From an uncultured Ilumatobacter sp. (GTDB lineage: Bacteria > Actinomycetota > Acidimicrobiia > Acidimicrobiales > Ilumatobacteraceae), in contig CAJJBX010000005.1 in NCBI GenBank assembly GCA_905182555.1, positions 62,001 through 126,000 of the forward strand: a stretch of 64,000 nt of DNA, read 5' to 3'. The first letter of the stretch is position 1. Every line of letters starts with the position of its first letter. The notes below the pieces were generated by a model. That model searched no databases. It worked only from the letters and a program-made list of their open reading frames with translations, and had not been told where the DNA came from. The position numbers and the translations under genes are program-made. Positions 44,980-54,369 of the stretch are shown in pieces.

Positions 44980-45895
44980 ATGACCGAGACCATCATCAGC
45001 TCCGCTACGAGGGAAGTCGTCATCGGCTTCAATCGTCCGTTCGTCATGATCGGCGAGCGCATCAACCCGACGGGCCGCAAGCTGCTCGCCGCCGAGATGA
45101 AAGTGGGCAACTTCGATCGGGTGGCCTCCGATGCCCTCGCGCAGGTCGCTGCTGGCGCACAGATGCTCGACATCAATGCTGGCATCCCACTGGCCGACGA
45201 GCCTGCGCTCCTCGCCCAGGCCATTCAGTTGGTCCAGTCGATCACCGACGTGCCGCTGTCGATCGACTCCTCGATTGTCGCTTCGCTGAGCGGCGCGCCA
45301 TCAACAAAGGCAAGCCGCTCATCAACAAGTCCCCGGCGAAGACGAGCAGATGGAACGAGTGCTTCCACTGGTCAAAAAATACGGCGCGGCAGTCGTCGCG
45401 ATCTCCAACGACGAGACCGGAATTTCCGAAGACCCCGATGTCCGCTTTGAAGTCGCACGCAAGATCGTTCGCCGCGCCGCCGACTACGGGATTCCCTCGT
45501 CCGACGTCATCGTCGATCCTCTGGTGATGCCGATCGGCGCCCTGGGTCAGGCTGGCCAGCAAGTATTCAAGCTGCTCCGCCGCCTCCAGACCGAGCTCAA
45601 AGTGAACACCACATGCGGCGCGTCGAACGTGAGCTTCGGGCTTCCTGAGCGCAACGCGATCACCGGCACGTTCCTCGCCATGGCGATCTCCAACGGTATG
45701 ACGTCGGCAATCATGAGCCCGCTGCACGACGAAGTGAAGAAGGCCGTCAAAGCCGCCGACGTGCTCGCTGGCCATGACCAAGACTGCGGCGCATGGATCG
45801 CCACATACCGCGAGGGTGGAGGCCAGGCCGCCGGCGACGCAGCCGGTGGCGCCCCGAAGCGTCGTGGTGGCCGTAGCGCCCGCGTGGCAGGCTGA
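44980..45895 (+). CDS. Pterin-binding corrinoid methyltransferase (methylcorrinoid:tetrahydrofolate), two frameshifts
   Basis: About 304 residues. N-terminal ERINPTGRKLLAAEMK and AQMLDINAGIPLADE mark the dihydropteroate-synthase-like TIM barrel; the later frame gives EDEQMERVLPLVKKYGAAVVAISNDETG, DVIVDPLVMPIGA and NTTCGASNVSFGLPERNAI. Two single-base indels at about 45290 and 45330 interrupt the frame: an intermediate frame reads INKGKPLIN and then VPGEDEQM. The family moves methyl between the corrinoid protein and tetrahydrofolate, so this is the acceptor step of the cluster. The basic/glycine-rich C-terminus is extra. The indels are probably sequencing errors since both halves look functional. 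Confidence 0.88.
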
Positions 45896-45908
45896 CGGAG
45901 GAATTCGT

Positions 45909-47915
45909 GTGGCTGGCAACATGACGTACAAGGTCGAATTCGCACCGTCAGGGTTGTCAGTGACGGTCAGTGAAGGCATCACCGTGCTCGATGCTGCACG
46001 TCTTGCCGGGGCCGACCTCGATTCGACATGCGGTGGACGCGGACTCTGTGGCCGTTGCCAGATCGTGCCCACGAACACCGACGCGCTGACCGGTTGGGCC
46101 TCGACCGAAGAGGAATACAAGGGCCGCCGGCCAATCCCCGATGGTCAGCGTCTCGGATGCGCGGCACAAGTTTGCGGCAACCTCAAAGTTGAGATCCCCG
46201 CAGCGAGCCAGGTCCACAAACAGGTCGTCCGGAAGTCCGTCGACGTGGGCAGCATCGAGATCGACCCGCTCATCCGCCTGCACTACATCGAGTTGGAGAA
46301 GGCCGAACTCGGCTCTGATCTGCGCGGGCTGACCGAACAGATCGCCGAACGGCTGTCGATGACCTATGGCGTGACGATGTCGCGCCTCGCAACTCACGTC
46401 CTTGCGCTGATTGCACCGGCAGCCAAACGTGGCAACAACACGATCACCGTCGCTGTCCGGCATGGTCACGAGGTCTGCGCCATTTATCCGGGCTACGTCG
46501 ACCTGGCATTCGGCATCGCCGTCGACGTCGGCTCGACCACCATTGCTGGCCACCTCGTTGATCTGTCGACCGGCGAGATCCGCGCGACCAACGGTGTGAT
46601 GAACCCGCAGATTCGGTTCGGCGACGACCTGATGTCGCGCGTGTCGTACGTGATGATGAACCCAGGCGGCGAGGTTGAGCTCACTCGGTCAGTGCGGACT
46701 GCACTCGACGAAATGGTCGGCGCGCTCGTCGCTGAGGCCGGAATTGACCGCGACGTGGTGCTCGACATGACGATCGTTGGCAACCCGATCATGCACCACG
46801 TCATCCTCGGCATCGATCCGACGCCGCTTGGCCAAGCCCCGTTCCTTCTGGCAACCGACAGCGCCGTGGTCACATTGGCCGTCGACCTCGACATCGACGC
46901 CCGGTTCTGCGAGGTCTACTTCCTCCCCTGCATCGCCGGCCATGTCGGCGCCGATACCGCTGGCGCAATTCTCGCCGAAGGCCCACACCGCAGCGACGCC
47001 CTCCAACTTTTGGTCGACGTCGGCACAAACGCTGAGATCGTGTTCGGCAACTCGGCTCATGTACTGGCTGCTTCGTCCCCCACCGGCCCGGCCTTCGAAG
47101 GCGCCCAGATCTCTGCCGGAATGCGCGCCACGGCAGGCGCCATCGAACGGGTCCGCATCGACCGCGACACGCTCGAACCGAAAGTTAAGGTGATCGGCTC
47201 CGACCTCTGGTCAGATGACCCTGGCTTCGAAGCCGAGACCCGGTCGCTCGACATCTCCGGCATCTGCGGATCCGGAATCATTGAAGTGATGGGCGAGTTG
47301 TATCTTTCGGGACTCATCGACGTCGACGGCACCGTACGTTCCGACGGGCCGGCCAAGACGTCGCGCATCTTCGCCCACGGACGCACGTTCTCGTATCGGC
47401 TGTTCGGTGTTGCCGATGAACCGGCTGCAAACATCAACGTCACCCAAGACGACGTGCGAGCCATTCAGCTCGCGAAAGCCGCATTGCGCGCTGGTATCGA
47501 TCTGCTGTGCGAACACGCTGGCAAAATCGATCCGAACGGCATCGGCTCGGTTCGGCTCGCCGGAGCCTTCGGTGCCCATATCGATCCGCTGTACGCCAAG
47601 GTGATTGGCCTCGTCCCTGACGTGCCGGTCGCGAAGGTTGCATCCGTTGGCAACGCTGCCGGAGCCGGCGCTGTTCGAGCCTTGGTATCGGCCAGCCAAC
47701 GCGCCGAGATCGAAGAGACAGTGCGACGAGTGCACAAGATCGAGACCGCGACCGAGCCCCGGTTCCAGGATCTGTTCGTCAACGCCATGGGATTCCCCCA
47801 CACGACCGAGCCAACGCCGAACCTCGCAACCGAAACCATGCTCCCAGTTGCCCAGCTAAAGCCCGAAGGGGCTGGCGCCAGACAGCGCACTGGCAGACGG
47901 CGTCGACCCGCCTGA
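45909..47915 (+). CDS. Corrinoid activation protein: 2Fe-2S ferredoxin plus ASKHA (RamA/DUF4445-like)
   Basis: 668 residues from GTG 45909, with GGAGG seven bases upstream (ATG at 45921 is an alternative). N-terminal [2Fe-2S] ferredoxin domain with C41, C47, C50 and C84 (STCGGRGLCGRC, LGCAAQVCG), a linker domain, then the actin-like ATPase domain (FGIAVDVGSTTIAGHLVDL, LLVDVGTNAEIVFG, RLAGAFGAHIDP, VGNAAGAGAVRALVS). These proteins use ATP and an electron to rescue Co(II) corrinoid to active Co(I). It completes the demethylation machinery. Follows the methyltransferase by 13 bases. Confidence 0.93.
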   Translation: MAGNMTYKVEFAPSGLSVTVSEGITVLDAARLAGADLDSTCGGRGLCGRCQIVPTNTDALTGWASTEEEYKGRRPIPDGQRLGCAAQVCGNLKVEIPAASQVHKQVVRKSVDVGSIEIDPLIRLHYIELEKAELGSDLRGLTEQIAERLSMTYGVTMSRLATHVLALIAPAAKRGNNTITVAVRHGHEVCAIYPGYVDLAFGIAVDVGSTTIAGHLVDLSTGEIRATNGVMNPQIRFGDDLMSRVSYVMMNPGGEVELTRSVRTALDEMVGALVAEAGIDRDVVLDMTIVGNPIMHHVILGIDPTPLGQAPFLLATDSAVVTLAVDLDIDARFCEVYFLPCIAGHVGADTAGAILAEGPHRSDALQLLVDVGTNAEIVFGNSAHVLAASSPTGPAFEGAQISAGMRATAGAIERVRIDRDTLEPKVKVIGSDLWSDDPGFEAETRSLDISGICGSGIIEVMGELYLSGLIDVDGTVRSDGPAKTSRIFAHGRTFSYRLFGVADEPAANINVTQDDVRAIQLAKAALRAGIDLLCEHAGKIDPNGIGSVRLAGAFGAHIDPLYAKVIGLVPDVPVAKVASVGNAAGAGAVRALVSASQRAEIEETVRRVHKIETATEPRFQDLFVNAMGFPHTTEPTPNLATETMLPVAQLKPEGAGARQRTGRRRRPA

Positions 47916-48085: not shown

Positions 48086-49624
48086 ATGAGTGACGAACGA
48101 CGTGGGCGTCGGACGGGTGGCCGCGCTGGGCGTGCGGCCAGCCGGGCATCGACCGCAGCCCCAATCCCGTCATATCTGAAACGTCAGATCAGGCCGTACG
48201 AGTTGGTCACCGACGAACAGTTGGAGATCATCGAGCACAACGCCGACACCATCCTTGAAACCGTCGGAATCGAATTCCGCAACTACCCGAGCGCCCTCGA
48301 AATGTGGCGCGCGGTAGGCGCCGATGTCGAAGGCGAACGAGTTCGCTTTCCGCGCGGGCTGTGCCGCAAGCTTGTGCAAGATAGCGCTCCGCGCCAGTAC
48401 ACGCAGCACGCACGCAATCCGGAACGCAACGTCGAAATCGGCGGCAACAACACGGTCTTCGCACCGAACTACGGCTCGCCTTTCGTCTATGACCAGGACG
48501 ACGGCCGTCGGTACGCAACGATCGCCGATTTCCAGAACATCGTGAAGCTCACGTACATGTCGCCGAACCTGCATCACTCGGGCGGCACGGTGTGCGAGCC
48601 CGTTGACGTACCCGTCAACAAGCGTCACCTCGACATGGTGTACGCCCACCTCAAGTACAGCGACAAAGCCTTCATGGGCTCGGTCACCGCTGGCGAGCGG
48701 GCGGCCGACTCGGTCGAGATGGCACGCATCGCATTCGGCGGCGACCTGCAAGATCGCACCGTCATGTCGTCGCTCATCAACGCATCGTCCCCACTCGTCT
48801 GGGACGACACAATGCTGGCTGCGGCCGAGACCTATGCGGCTGCCAACCAGGCGTGCATCATCTCTCCGTTCATCCTCGCTGGCGCAATGGCACCGACCAC
48901 CTCGGCCGGCGTCGCCGCACAAACACTCGCCGAAGCATTGGCCGGCATGGCTTTCTGCCAGCTCGTACGCCCAGGCGCCCCGGTGATCTTCGGGTCGTTC
49001 GCATCGTCGATGTCGATGGCCACTGGCGCACCGACGTTCGGCACGCCCGAACCGGCGATCGTCCTCTACACCGTTGCTGCACTTGCTCGCCGACTTGGCG
49101 TCCCGTTCCGCTCGGGCGGCTCACTGACCGCCTCCAAGCTGCCTGATGCTCAAGCCGCGTACGAGTCGGCTTCGACGATCATTCCGACCGTGATGGCGGG
49201 CGTCAACTTCGTTCTCCACGCGGCTGGCTGGATGGAAGGCGGCCTTGCCGTCGGCTACGAGAAGTTCATGATGGATGCCGACCAACTCGGCATGATGATG
49301 ACGCTCGCCAAGGGCCTTGATATGAGCGAGAATGGCCAAGCCATGGAACAGCTCACCGTGCACACGCCCGGCGACCACTTTCTCGGAACAGCACACACTT
49401 TCGCCAACTTCGAAACCGCGTTCTATCGATCGACAATGGCCGACAACTCGAGCTACGAGCAGTGGCTCGAAGACGGTTCGACGACCACTGCCGACCGTGC
49501 CAACACCGCGTGGAAAGAGTCGCTGGCCTCTTACGAAGCACCGCCGCTCGACGATGCGATCGACGCTGAGCTGCTCGACTTCATCGGCCGCCGCAAGTCT
49601 GAAATGCCCGACGGCATCGGCTGA
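48086..49624 (+). CDS. MttB-family corrinoid methyltransferase, non-pyrrolysine type
   Basis: 512 residues. A TIM-barrel protein of the trimethylamine methyltransferase superfamily (COG5598). Recognisable parts: YELVTDEQLEIIEHNADTIL, VGIEFRNYPSAL, NNTVFAPNYGSPFVYD, GTVCEPVDVP, FGGDLQDRTVMSSLINASSP and FGSFASSMSMATGAPTFGTPE. There is no in-frame amber codon, so pyrrolysine is not used; such members demethylate glycine betaine, proline betaine, carnitine or related quaternary amines. Which substrate is used here cannot be told. A basic arginine/glycine-rich tail of about 25 residues precedes the domain. It has its own operator/promoter, 170 bases after the activator gene. Confidence 0.92.
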   Translation: MSDERRGRRTGGRAGRAASRASTAAPIPSYLKRQIRPYELVTDEQLEIIEHNADTILETVGIEFRNYPSALEMWRAVGADVEGERVRFPRGLCRKLVQDSAPRQYTQHARNPERNVEIGGNNTVFAPNYGSPFVYDQDDGRRYATIADFQNIVKLTYMSPNLHHSGGTVCEPVDVPVNKRHLDMVYAHLKYSDKAFMGSVTAGERAADSVEMARIAFGGDLQDRTVMSSLINASSPLVWDDTMLAAAETYAAANQACIISPFILAGAMAPTTSAGVAAQTLAEALAGMAFCQLVRPGAPVIFGSFASSMSMATGAPTFGTPEPAIVLYTVAALARRLGVPFRSGGSLTASKLPDAQAAYESASTIIPTVMAGVNFVLHAAGWMEGGLAVGYEKFMMDADQLGMMMTLAKGLDMSENGQAMEQLTVHTPGDHFLGTAHTFANFETAFYRSTMADNSSYEQWLEDGSTTTADRANTAWKESLASYEAPPLDDAIDAELLDFIGRRKSEMPDGIG

Positions 49625-50151: not shown

Positions 50152-51338
50152 TTGGCTTGAGCGCGATCGTCAGACAGCCCAAGCCGAGTGCGCCATAGAG
50201 CAGCGCCCCGAACACCATTGGCGTCACCGTGGTATCGATCTGGGCGTCGACGATGGCGGCAAGCGCCGCACCGACACCGAGTTGCGCGACCCCGAGAATC
50301 GCGGCTGCTGTACCGGCCTTGTCAGCTGCTCAGCGCCGACACGCTCATCGGCGCCATGGTGCCTGCCCTCGCGTTGGCAATCAATGCCCAGCCGAACCAG
50401 AACCAGACCGACGGAACTCCGTCTGCAAGCAGCGTGCCGACCAGCCCGACGACGCTCACCACGACGAACACCGTGGCTGCGCTGATGACCATCTTCTCGG
50501 CGCCATATTTCAGAATGAGTCGACGGTTAAAAAGCAACGCCAGCGCCATGCCGATGCCTGATGCTCCGAAGAACAACGTGAACTGCGAGTCGCGGTCGTA
50601 AACGTTGTCGAGCACCACCTGCGCGCTTCCAAGCCACACGAAGAATGCGCCACCGAAGAATGCCTGGGCGATGAGAATCCACAACGTCACGCGAGTGGCC
50701 ATGACTGCACCGAAGGCCTCGCTGATCCGCGCCAGTTTGATTGGACGCCGCAGTTCGGGCGCCAAGGTTTCACCGAACCTGATGGCCCAAACGAGCGCTA
50801 TTCCTGCAAGCACGAGGCCAGCCGAGAAAACCATCCGCCAGTCACCGACGAGCAAAATCGCTTCACCGACGAACGGCATGAAGATCGGTCCAAGCAAGAA
50901 GATGGCGCTGAAGGTGCTCACGACGCGGGCCATCTGATCTCCAGCGAACAGGTCGCGAGCGATCGCCATGCGCATCACGGTCGGCGACGATGCGCCGAGG
51001 CCCCACACGAATCGAGCAGCCAGGAGTAGTTCGAAGTTGGGTGACAGGGCGCTGCAGATCGCACCGACCGCGTACACCGCGACACCCGTAATAAGCACGG
51101 GTCGCCGACCGAACCGATCGGCCAGGATGCCGTAGAACAGCTGCCCGACCGCCATGCCAGCGAAATAAACGGTGCCAGTTACCGCCGGGCTCATTCCCCG
51201 CTCGTCGAGGTCGAATGCTTCAGCGAGCTGGTCGAATGCAGGCAGCGCTGCGTCGATCCCAAAGGCCATCAAGACGCCGATGAACGCGAGGAACGCGATG
51301 GCCGATCGTTCCGTTCTCTGGCGCCCGACATCGTTCAC
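50147..51338 (-). CDS. MFS transporter, Bcr/CflA (DHA1) type, one frameshift
   Basis: About 397 residues and 12 membrane helices from GTG 51338 (NDVGRQRTERSAIAFLAF). MFS motif A is GILADRFGRRPVL; the helix-5 region is RFVWGLGASSPTVMRMAIARD. Near 50327 one base is missing after SVSALSS; the next frame continues DKAGTAAAILGVAQLG and ends in LTIALKPK at the stop 50147-50149. Bcr/CflA members export drugs or amino-acid-like compounds. The stop lies within the repeat unit at 50116-50151. Convergent with the SRPBCC gene. Confidence 0.85.
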
Positions 51339-51421
51339 TGCCGCACCATAGCGACGCAGCGGTCGTTTGACCGGCGGGGTTCGGGAGGGAGAATTTGCCG
51401 GCGCACGACTACGGTGCGGCA

Positions 51422-52420
51422 ATGGCAAACAACGACATCGTGATGTTGGAAGGTGGGCCGTTGATCGACCCGGCAGCCCTCGAAAATGCACTCGGCTGGG
51501 CTCTGAAGCCCGAAGGCCTCTGCAAGGACGACACCTGCGTCATCGTTCACGATCGCGCTGCGTTGATGAGCGGGGACCGCGTTGACGTCACCGCCGTGGC
51601 GTCTCTGATCGACCGACCTGCGGCGCACGACGCCACATCCGACCTCGTGGCCATCGGCGCCCCACGCGATTTACGTCGCGCCGCTATCAACGACATGCGG
51701 GCTCCCGACTTCACGTTGCCCGACCTCGACGGCCTGCCGATGAACTTCTCCGACCATCGCTCCAAAAAGCGACTGCTCGTTGCGTTCTCGTCGTGGTGAG
51801 GCTGTCTCCTCGATCTGCCAGGTTGGCAGGCACTCCAAGAAGAACTCGCTGATCACAACTTCCAAGTGATCGCTGTCGCCGTCGATGAAGACGTCGAGAC
51901 CATCCGTGGTGCCGCTGACGGCATCACCTATCCCATCCTGATCGACGCCGATCATGTGGTCACAGAGCTCTACGCGATCTCGAACGTGCCGACGGTGCTG
52001 ATGATCGACGAGGACGACAACATCGTCCAGCCGAACTGGAGCGCCTACGCAAGCGACACGTTCCGCGAGCTCACCGGCATCAACTCCGAGACTCAGATGG
52101 ACCACATCCGCGCATGGGCCAAGGTCGGCACACTCCGGATGTCGCCCGAGGACGCAAAAGGTGCGGTCCACGACCTGAGCTCAGAGGAAGAACAGGCGCG
52201 ATTGTTCTTCCGCATCGCCACCCGCCTCCGCAACGACGGCGATGCCGAGGGTGCCGAACGGAACTTTGTCACGGCAATCGATCTCGCGCCTCACGACTGG
52301 ACTGTGCAGCGTGCGGCCCAGCCGTTACGTGGCATCAACCCGTTCGGCGACGCATTCATGGAGCTGTACACCGCCTTCAACGAAGCCGGACGGCCGTTCC
52401 ATGGGGTCACCGGCCACTGA
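51422..52420 (+). CDS. Thioredoxin-fold redoxin with in-frame TGA, candidate selenoprotein
   Basis: 332 residues if the TGA at 51797-51799 is read through as residue 126. The frame is open and coherent on both sides. Residues 1-95 are an unrecognised N-terminal domain; the redoxin domain starts at about 98 (RAPDFTLPDLDGLPMNF) and the active site reads LLVAFSSW-[TGA]-GCLLDLPGWQALQEEL, where homologs carry cysteine (W-C-G-C). FQVIAVAVDED, YPILIDADHVV and NVPTVLMIDEDD complete the fold. A C-terminal TPR-like stretch follows (LFFRIATRLRNDGDAEGAERNF). A hairpin CTGCCA-GGT-TGGCAG starts 16 bases after the TGA. Alternatively it is a Cys codon changed to TGA by mutation or error. Start ATG 51422. Confidence 0.82.
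51814..51830 (+). promoter_or_regulatory. Candidate bSECIS hairpin
   Basis: CTGCCA (51815-51820), loop GGT, TGGCAG (51824-51829), with a flanking U-G pair. The apical loop is 21 bases after the TGA and begins with G, which fits the known bacterial SECIS rules (loop 16-37 nt downstream, G in the first two loop bases, stem of 4 or more pairs). Confidence 0.6.
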
Positions 52421-52473
52421 ACTCCGTTCGGGTTTCACCTCGGGGATAGCGAGATAGTCGCTACGGTGAGCTC

Positions 52474-53232
52474 ATGGCCGAGACGTTCCACCTGGGGCTC
52501 AATGCCTCCGACATCAATGGTGCAACTCTGGCGATAGTGCCGGGCGACCCCAATCGGGTCGAGCGCATCGCTCAACTCCTTGATGATTCGCGGCCACTGG
52601 CAGCCCATCGCGAGTTCACATCGTGGATTGGAAAGCTCGACGGTAATTCAGTCGTGGTCTGCTCGACCGGCATTGGCGGACCGTCGACGTCGATCGCTGT
52701 CGAAGAACTCGCACAGCTTGGGGTGACCACCTTTCTGCGGGTCGGCACCACCGGCGGAATCCAGCCAAACGTCAACCCAGGCGACGTGATCATCACCACC
52801 GGAGCCGTTCGGCTGGATGGGGCAAGTTTGCACTTCGCACCGATGGAGTTCCCTGCCGTTGCCGACTTTGAGTGCACGACAGCCCTCGTCACTGCTGCGC
52901 GCGACGCCGGATCTCAGACCCACGTGGGCATCACGGCATCGAGCGACACGTTTTATCCAGGCCAAGAACGCTACGACACAACAACTGGCCGTGTGGTCGA
53001 ACGATTCCGTGGGTCGCTCGACGAGTGGCAGTCGATGGGCGTACTCAACTACGAGATGGAATCGGCAACCCTGTTGACGATGTGCGCATCGTCAGGCTGG
53101 CGCGCCGGCTGCGTTGCGGGTGTACTCGTCAACCGCACACAACAGGAAACTCCGGACGCCGCAACAATCGCTGCGACAGAGTCGAATGCAGTTGCCATCG
53201 TGGTGGCGGCGGCCCGCCAGCTCGCAGGCTGA
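52474..53232 (+). CDS. udp: Uridine phosphorylase
   Basis: 252 residues. It splits uridine with phosphate into uracil and ribose 1-phosphate. The protein matches enterobacterial Udp almost block for block: [94 protein letters not shown] and VNRTQQE. This is far closer than expected for an actinobacterial nucleoside phosphorylase, suggesting transfer from gammaproteobacteria. Ends one base before the convergent XRE gene. Confidence 0.95.
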
Positions 53233-53743: not shown

Positions 53744-54187
53744 TCACTTCGTGGCGTCAGCTGCCGGCTTCTTGGCTGCCGGCTTCTTGGCTGCCGGCTT
53801 CTTGGCTGCCGGCTTCTTGGCTGCCGGCTTCTTGGCTGCTGGCTTCTTGGCTGCTGGCTTGGCCTCTTCGATCTTGAGCATCTCGATGACGCGCCCGTGT
53901 AGGTCACGGTTCATGTCAGCGGCACGTTCAACGAAGGAGATGTAACGCTTGCCGGCCTCGGCAGCGGTCGGGAACTCGGCGAGCTCGAAGCGGCCTGCAA
54001 ACGGCAGCTCCACCATGGCGGGAACTTCGACGACCTTGGTGATGGCGTCGACAGTCTTCACTGCGAAGTCGACAGCCCTACGGTTGGCATCGATGACGGC
54101 ATCAAGGACCTTGTCGTTGGTGCTTGTGTAGTTGGCGGTTGCCGTTTCGAGCTGACCGTTGATCTTGGTGATGATTTGGTTGCGCAT
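53744..54187 (-). CDS. Phasin-like / histone-H1-tail protein
   Basis: 147 residues from ATG 54187 with GGAG eight bases upstream; the longer frame upstream is not coding. Residues 1-110 are helical (ITKINGQLETATANYTSTND, AVIDANRRAVDFAVKTVDAITK) with a phasin-like look. The tail is seven PAAKK repeats from 15-bp DNA repeats. Lysine/alanine tails of this kind bind DNA, polyhydroxyalkanoate granule surfaces or, in HBHA, heparan sulfate. With the neighbouring XRE gene it recalls the mycobacterial Rv0474-hbhA pair, but the N-terminal domain is not clearly HBHA. Function open. Confidence 0.75.
   Translation of the reverse strand: MRNQIITKINGQLETATANYTSTNDKVLDAVIDANRRAVDFAVKTVDAITKVVEVPAMVELPFAGRFELAEFPTAAEAGKRYISFVERAADMNRDLHGRVIEMLKIEEAKPAAKKPAAKKPAAKKPAAKKPAAKKPAAKKPAADATK
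53757..53858. repeat. 15-bp tandem repeat encoding PAAKK units
   Basis: About six to seven copies of GGCTGCCGGCTTCTT in tandem (last copies GGCTGCTGGCTTCTT), coding for the lysine/alanine tail on the minus strand. Confidence 0.95.
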
Positions 54188-54369
54188 TAAATGCTCCAGT
54201 GTGTTGAGAGTTTTGGCGGGGTCGTGATCTCGGAGCCGGCTGGCGTGCCTGCTCTGCTGTTGTATTGCGTAGTTTATCACGCATTTCGTAAAATGCTGGA
54301 GATTTGCAAGAACTACTTCGCCTGACCCGCAGAGTAGATTCACACGCTGTGCCGACTGCTCCGACCGCG

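Follow-up and report, generated by a model that had tools for sequence, protein, structure and literature searches.

The thiol-disulfide oxidoreductases ResA, TlpA and StoA carry a Cys-x-x-Cys active site, a motif also given in the titles of the structure variants matched in this work, and the active site of classic thioredoxins is W-C-x-x-C. An engineered C-G-C motif acts as a mimic of disulfide isomerase. Selenocysteine (Sec) occurs in a related setting in the predicted family "Prx-like (UGC-containing)", assigned to pfam00578 and represented by 46 sequences in the Global Ocean Sampling data, where it was commoner in non-marine samples (Zhang and Gladyshev 2008, PMC2398784). A UGC-containing Prx-like family is also included in a table of PMC9312934, and a 2026 review (PMC13188914) names a "UGC-containing TlpA disulfide reductase family protein" (cd02966); MDE0950781.1 and MBL6689828.1 are family proteins named in the tables of these two papers. 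The term "UGC" is absent from the main-text passages of PMC5029168 and, by term search, from the abstract and part of the Results of PMC12013277. In the literature searched, no paper contained the term "WAxxUGC", none joining "Ilumatobacter" with "selenoprotein", and none joining "selenocysteine", "Actinobacteria", "selenoproteome" and "UGC". Term searches likewise listed no paper on Sec in Acidimicrobiia or Ilumatobacter; three papers contain both "selenocysteine" and "Acidimicrobi".

The window analysed here, a stretch of 64,000 nucleotides from an uncultured Ilumatobacter sp., contains on its forward strand a frame that runs from ATG 51422 to a terminal TGA at 52418-52420 and specifies 332 residues. 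The frame is interrupted by one in-frame TGA only, at 51797-51799 (codon 126), which is preceded by 125 residues and followed by 206 residues and the stop. A reading of the DNA made from the sequence alone (the sequence-only reading) had pointed to this single TGA without a frame shift, and the frame is indeed open from ATG to stop otherwise, with homologs aligning over nearly its full length (51422-52420). When read through, the active site becomes SSW-U-GC, in full F-S-S-W-U-G-C, in which the putative resolving Cys128 is encoded by TGT at 51803-51805. We put at about 95% the probability that this is a functional selenoprotein gene whose UGA codon 126 is decoded as Sec to yield a redoxin, a gene that routine annotation would split in two at the UGA. 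The kind is already known, since UGC-containing Prx-like or TlpA proteins appear in the published material of PMC2398784, PMC9312934 and PMC13188914. Both the pfam00578 domain and the U-G-C motif of those selenoproteins are present in the window protein, a likeness drawn from their published descriptions, and the gene appears either to join this family of predicted selenoproteins as a new member or to represent a sister clade of it. What is fresh is an N-terminal Cys-x4-Cys pair whose constancy equals that of the active site, and the repeated exchange of Sec and Cys within one order.

Judging from sequence and model, the product is laid out as an N-terminal domain with Cys-x4-Cys, a TlpA/ResA-like domain with W-Sec-Gly-Cys, and a TPR-like C-terminus. 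The central domain (residues 92-203; 51695-52030, forward strand) was recognised in the read-through protein by Pfam as AhpC-TSA (7e-14) and Redoxin (2e-13), and both sequence and fold place it with the TlpA/ResA-like thioredoxin fold; the structure model (pLDDT 94.6, pTM 0.91) had ResA structures as its best fold matches, and these were among the best by sequence as well. The window protein thus has the thioredoxin fold in common with ResA, TlpA and StoA, but its redox residues stand one residue closer (U-x-C), one of them would be Sec, and extra parts lie on both sides of the fold. The C-terminal TPR-like helical part (about residues 244-291; 52151-52294, forward strand) has its positions from the profile of A1; Pfam TPR_2 was matched in 12 of 44 members, but the window protein had no such match. 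Searching plasmids with the protein returned 207 records, all below 60% identity and none spanning 80% of the query.

The N-terminal domain (about residues 1-92; 51422-51697, forward strand) gave no Pfam match, and Foldseek with this domain alone returned no match at E 0.001 (best 0.49), so that it is without a significant solved structural relative. Its Cys34-x4-Cys39 segment (51521-51538, forward strand) is conserved in an alignment of 92 rows, with Cys39 in all 92 and Cys34 in 91, the one gap falling in a row that is incomplete there (L056); the sister clade described below behaves likewise. In the model, the two cysteines lie on neighbouring strands. Matches to the N-terminal domain as query were found in 34 of 60 related genomes, and among the matches listed, 40 of 49 rows had an open frame no longer than 220 residues, which would be expected if many of them run into the UGA.

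Relatives were searched in 397 genomes of the order, and 159 of these had a match at E 1e-15. We examined 78 loci, made up of 30 retained by the search (among them the window's own locus), 40 retrieved by their position and eight named records; together they cover 70 of the 159 genomes with a relative. The eight named records are drafts labelled Ilumatobacter (four), Ilumatobacteraceae (one), Acidimicrobiales (two) and Actinomycetota (one), labels that would place the window's organism in the same group. At the column of codon 126, the codon was TGA in 59 loci (Sec forms), including all eight named records, and Cys in 19 (TGC in 14, TGT in five), with no other codon, and residue 128 was Cys in all 78. 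Because the loci were chosen as the best scorers plus, deliberately, all 19 full-length stop-free rows among the matches listed, the ratio of 59 to 19 is no estimate of frequency; three further stop-free rows among the matches listed were fragments ending short of the active site and were left out. Ten extra loci from the genus all had TGA; by identity, six belong to the window-clade type and four to the sister type. Of the six, four are contigs already counted and two are new. The Cys/Sec exchange sought among homologs is therefore present. The earlier statement that relatives have W-C-G-C holds for the Cys relatives (19/19) and fails for classic thioredoxins with their W-C-x-x-C.

A tree of 92 rows, comprising the 78 loci and 14 sister-type loci, split into 15 rows of a WAxxUGC type and 77 rows including the window (support 100/99); one of the 59 TGA loci (L077) falls in the former, the sister clade. 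The Sec/Cys label changes six times on this tree, with at least four changes forced by well-supported branches, although the direction of each is not shown because the root is a midpoint. Sec and Cys thus appear to have been exchanged repeatedly within the order. The sister type corresponds to NCBIfam NF041054 (WAxxUGC_long; "ResA-like WAxxUGC motif-containing protein"), against which the window protein scored 188.2 bits, below the 300-bit cut-off. In a scan of ten relatives, five exceeded that cut-off, L101 reached 273 bits, and four window-clade members scored 200.7-240 bits. NF041054 was matched in 24 of 396 genomes of the phylum at E 1e-20, in 12 above the cut-off, and one genome of the same genus (G134) bears both types. 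The layout, U-G-C and the N-terminal Cys-x4-Cys are common to both, whereas the NF041054 name has W-A-x-x before U where the window protein has F-S-S-W, and most NF041054-type rows carry, following the redoxin domain, an insert absent from the window protein. The F is no rule of the window clade, since its 77 loci have F in 64, W in 12 and Y in one. Copy number also varies: G004 has five UGC-type matches and G768 two sister-type genes, and several UGC-type genes are carried by some relatives (G004, L118-L121).

A lack of Sec machinery would have refuted the sequence-only reading, and all four components were found in the same assembly, a 2.56 Mb draft in 26 contigs, each above its curated cut-off. 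These are tRNA-Sec (64.2 bits, cut-off 47; ARAGORN anticodon TCA), selA (411 bits, cut-off 268), selB (278 bits, cut-off 242; positions 2-340 of the 581-position profile, frame of 588 residues) and selD (360.9 bits), which has its own in-frame TGA giving GAG-U-GCK; selA adjoins selB on contig 11. Across the order, selA was matched in 237 of 397 genomes (E 1e-40). Its presence followed the form of the redoxin, for, among the genomes of the examined loci (lists transcribed by hand), 49 of 51 with the TGA form had a match versus four of 19 with the Cys form (Fisher p 6e-10, its significance overstated because the homologs are related). The exceptions are two TGA-form genomes without a selA match (G299 and G311) and the four Cys-form genomes with one. 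In a tree-aware test of four independent pairs on well-supported branches, selA followed Sec in 3.5 of four on average and never went the opposite way; the median p was 0.125, and four pairs cannot reach significance. All eight further genomes of the genus had selA, and one of them (G766) had no match to the redoxin N-terminal domain.

A hairpin had been proposed just downstream of the TGA, and one is found at 51815-51829 on the forward strand, 15 bases past the codon. This bSECIS-like element, CTGCC-AGGTT-GGCAG, can be read as five base pairs with loop AGGTT after 20 nt, or as six base pairs, in which case the loop GGT follows after 21 nt. Every one of the 59 Sec forms has five pairs (G-U allowed) with a loop N-G-[G/U], as do six of the 19 Cys forms (Fisher p 1e-10, its significance again overstated by the relatedness of the homologs); each gene's own synonymous usage would lead to 22.8 of 59 and 4.3 of 19, respectively. 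The peptide accounts for part of the hairpin: among loci with LPGWQ, it occurs in 54 of 54 Sec forms versus six of nine Cys forms. Within these 54 Sec forms, Pro is encoded by CCC or CCA, with CCG absent (0/54, against 38% elsewhere), and the Gly codon is GGG in 39, GGT in 14 and GGC in one. GGG or GGT is thus used in 53 of 54, compared with 34% elsewhere, where GGC makes up half of the Gly codons. Two Sec forms (L079 and L095) have CTTGCC/GGCAAG, a two-sided change that preserves a pair, and 13 of 14 sister-clade rows have the hairpin, the outermost pair being broken in L101. These patterns suggest that the hairpin is maintained in Sec forms by synonymous codon choice.

On its own the hairpin is stable, at a calculated -7.1 kcal/mol (15 nt), or -8.6 kcal/mol once it is extended by one base at either end (17 nt); the bSECIS consensus in the Fig. 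2 legend of PMC13188914 has a minimum free energy no higher than -7.5 kcal/mol. When the 42 bases following the codon were folded to minimum energy, neither Sec forms (n=59, mean z -0.27) nor Cys forms (n=19, mean z -0.40) showed stability beyond that of controls with synonymous codons, so that this test, unlike the stem-and-loop count, did not tell the two forms apart; the window's own 42 bases had a z of +1.72 and a minimum-energy fold different from the hairpin. An Rfam search over 51300-52500 found nothing convincing, its sole match scoring 21.2 bits where the gathering score is 50. We weighed the codon evidence above minimum-energy folding because the codon count addresses the specific structure. 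Being compact (five pairs and a five-base loop) and apparently kept by codon choice, the hairpin would serve well as an example of a minimal bSECIS.

Could the TGA be an accident? A Cys codon changed to a stop, whether in a pseudogene with a decaying downstream frame or through a sequencing error, might be suspected in a draft that is 72.7% complete, the more so as TGC and TGT are each one base from TGA. The same column, however, holds TGA in 59 of 78 loci, every named record among them, and the frame downstream is open and conserved, which makes this explanation exceedingly improbable. The UGA might instead be a true stop, with a short N-terminal protein and a second protein produced by reinitiation, for example at GTG 51866, and the corresponding open reading frames (51395-51799 and 51866-52420) do exist mechanically. 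Such an arrangement would sever the thioredoxin fold at its active site; the 19 Cys forms are one continuous protein, and the codon bias at the hairpin is strong where TGA is present (59 versus 22.8 expected) and slight in Cys forms (six versus 4.3). We regard this reading as very unlikely.

A third possibility involves no selenium: a tRNA, near-cognate or altered, would insert one of the standard amino acids, Cys or Trp. The Cys found at column 126 in relatives without TGA would suit this account. Against it, the window gene itself terminates in TGA and the next stop is likewise TGA in 34 of the 59 Sec-form genes, so that UGA is a stop in these genomes, and the TGA form tracks the presence of selA; we give it very little credence. 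Decoding of UGA as selenocysteine, as the sequence-only reading had proposed, gains support instead from the Cys/Sec exchange, from the Sec machinery in the assembly and from synonymous codon choice at the hairpin.

With selenocysteine at position 126, a plausible course of events can be outlined. SelB and tRNA-Sec would decode the UGA, and, as its conservation suggests, the short hairpin starting 15 bases downstream would guide this step. The product is most likely a thiol/disulfide oxidoreductase or a peroxide-reducing redoxin, in which Sec126 would attack the substrate and Cys128 would resolve the intermediate as a selenenylsulfide, with reduction by a thioredoxin-type donor or by the Cys34/Cys39 pair. 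The redoxin is probably cytosolic because no signal peptide was evident by eye in the window protein. Somewhat more speculatively, and at a little less than even odds in our judgement, Cys34-x4-Cys39 may be a built-in second dithiol that trades electrons with Sec126-Gly-Cys128, forming a self-contained, two-centre selenium redox relay common to both clades and kept in the Cys forms; alternatively, the pair may be a metal site. The related genomes hold a natural Sec/Cys series of one enzyme that tracks selA, which makes the benefit of selenium testable.

The neighbourhood was examined in 38 loci (L020-L057), with flanks of 1.5-3 kb at most. MttB was found near the redoxin in three relatives (L051-L053), a nucleoside phosphorylase in five (L050-L053 and L055), an HTH regulator in three and a divergent MFS transporter in five (L021, L050, L051, L053 and L055). 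Since these recurring neighbours all occur in the Ilumatobacter group (by name or handle), no operon partner is inferred for the family. In the window itself, a RACo-type corrinoid-activation protein (45774-47915, forward strand) lies beside an MttB-family methyltransferase (48086-49624, forward strand), which is apparently of the non-pyrrolysine type because its full 512-residue frame has no in-frame TAG. On the reverse strand, 53744-54343 encodes a protein whose C-terminal tail repeats a KKPAA unit and for which Pfam gave no match at E 1e-5. Outside the window, a formate dehydrogenase alpha-like stretch (G000:C6:53524-55389, L122) has three TGA and one TAA inside the match and is perhaps a decayed or misassembled gene.
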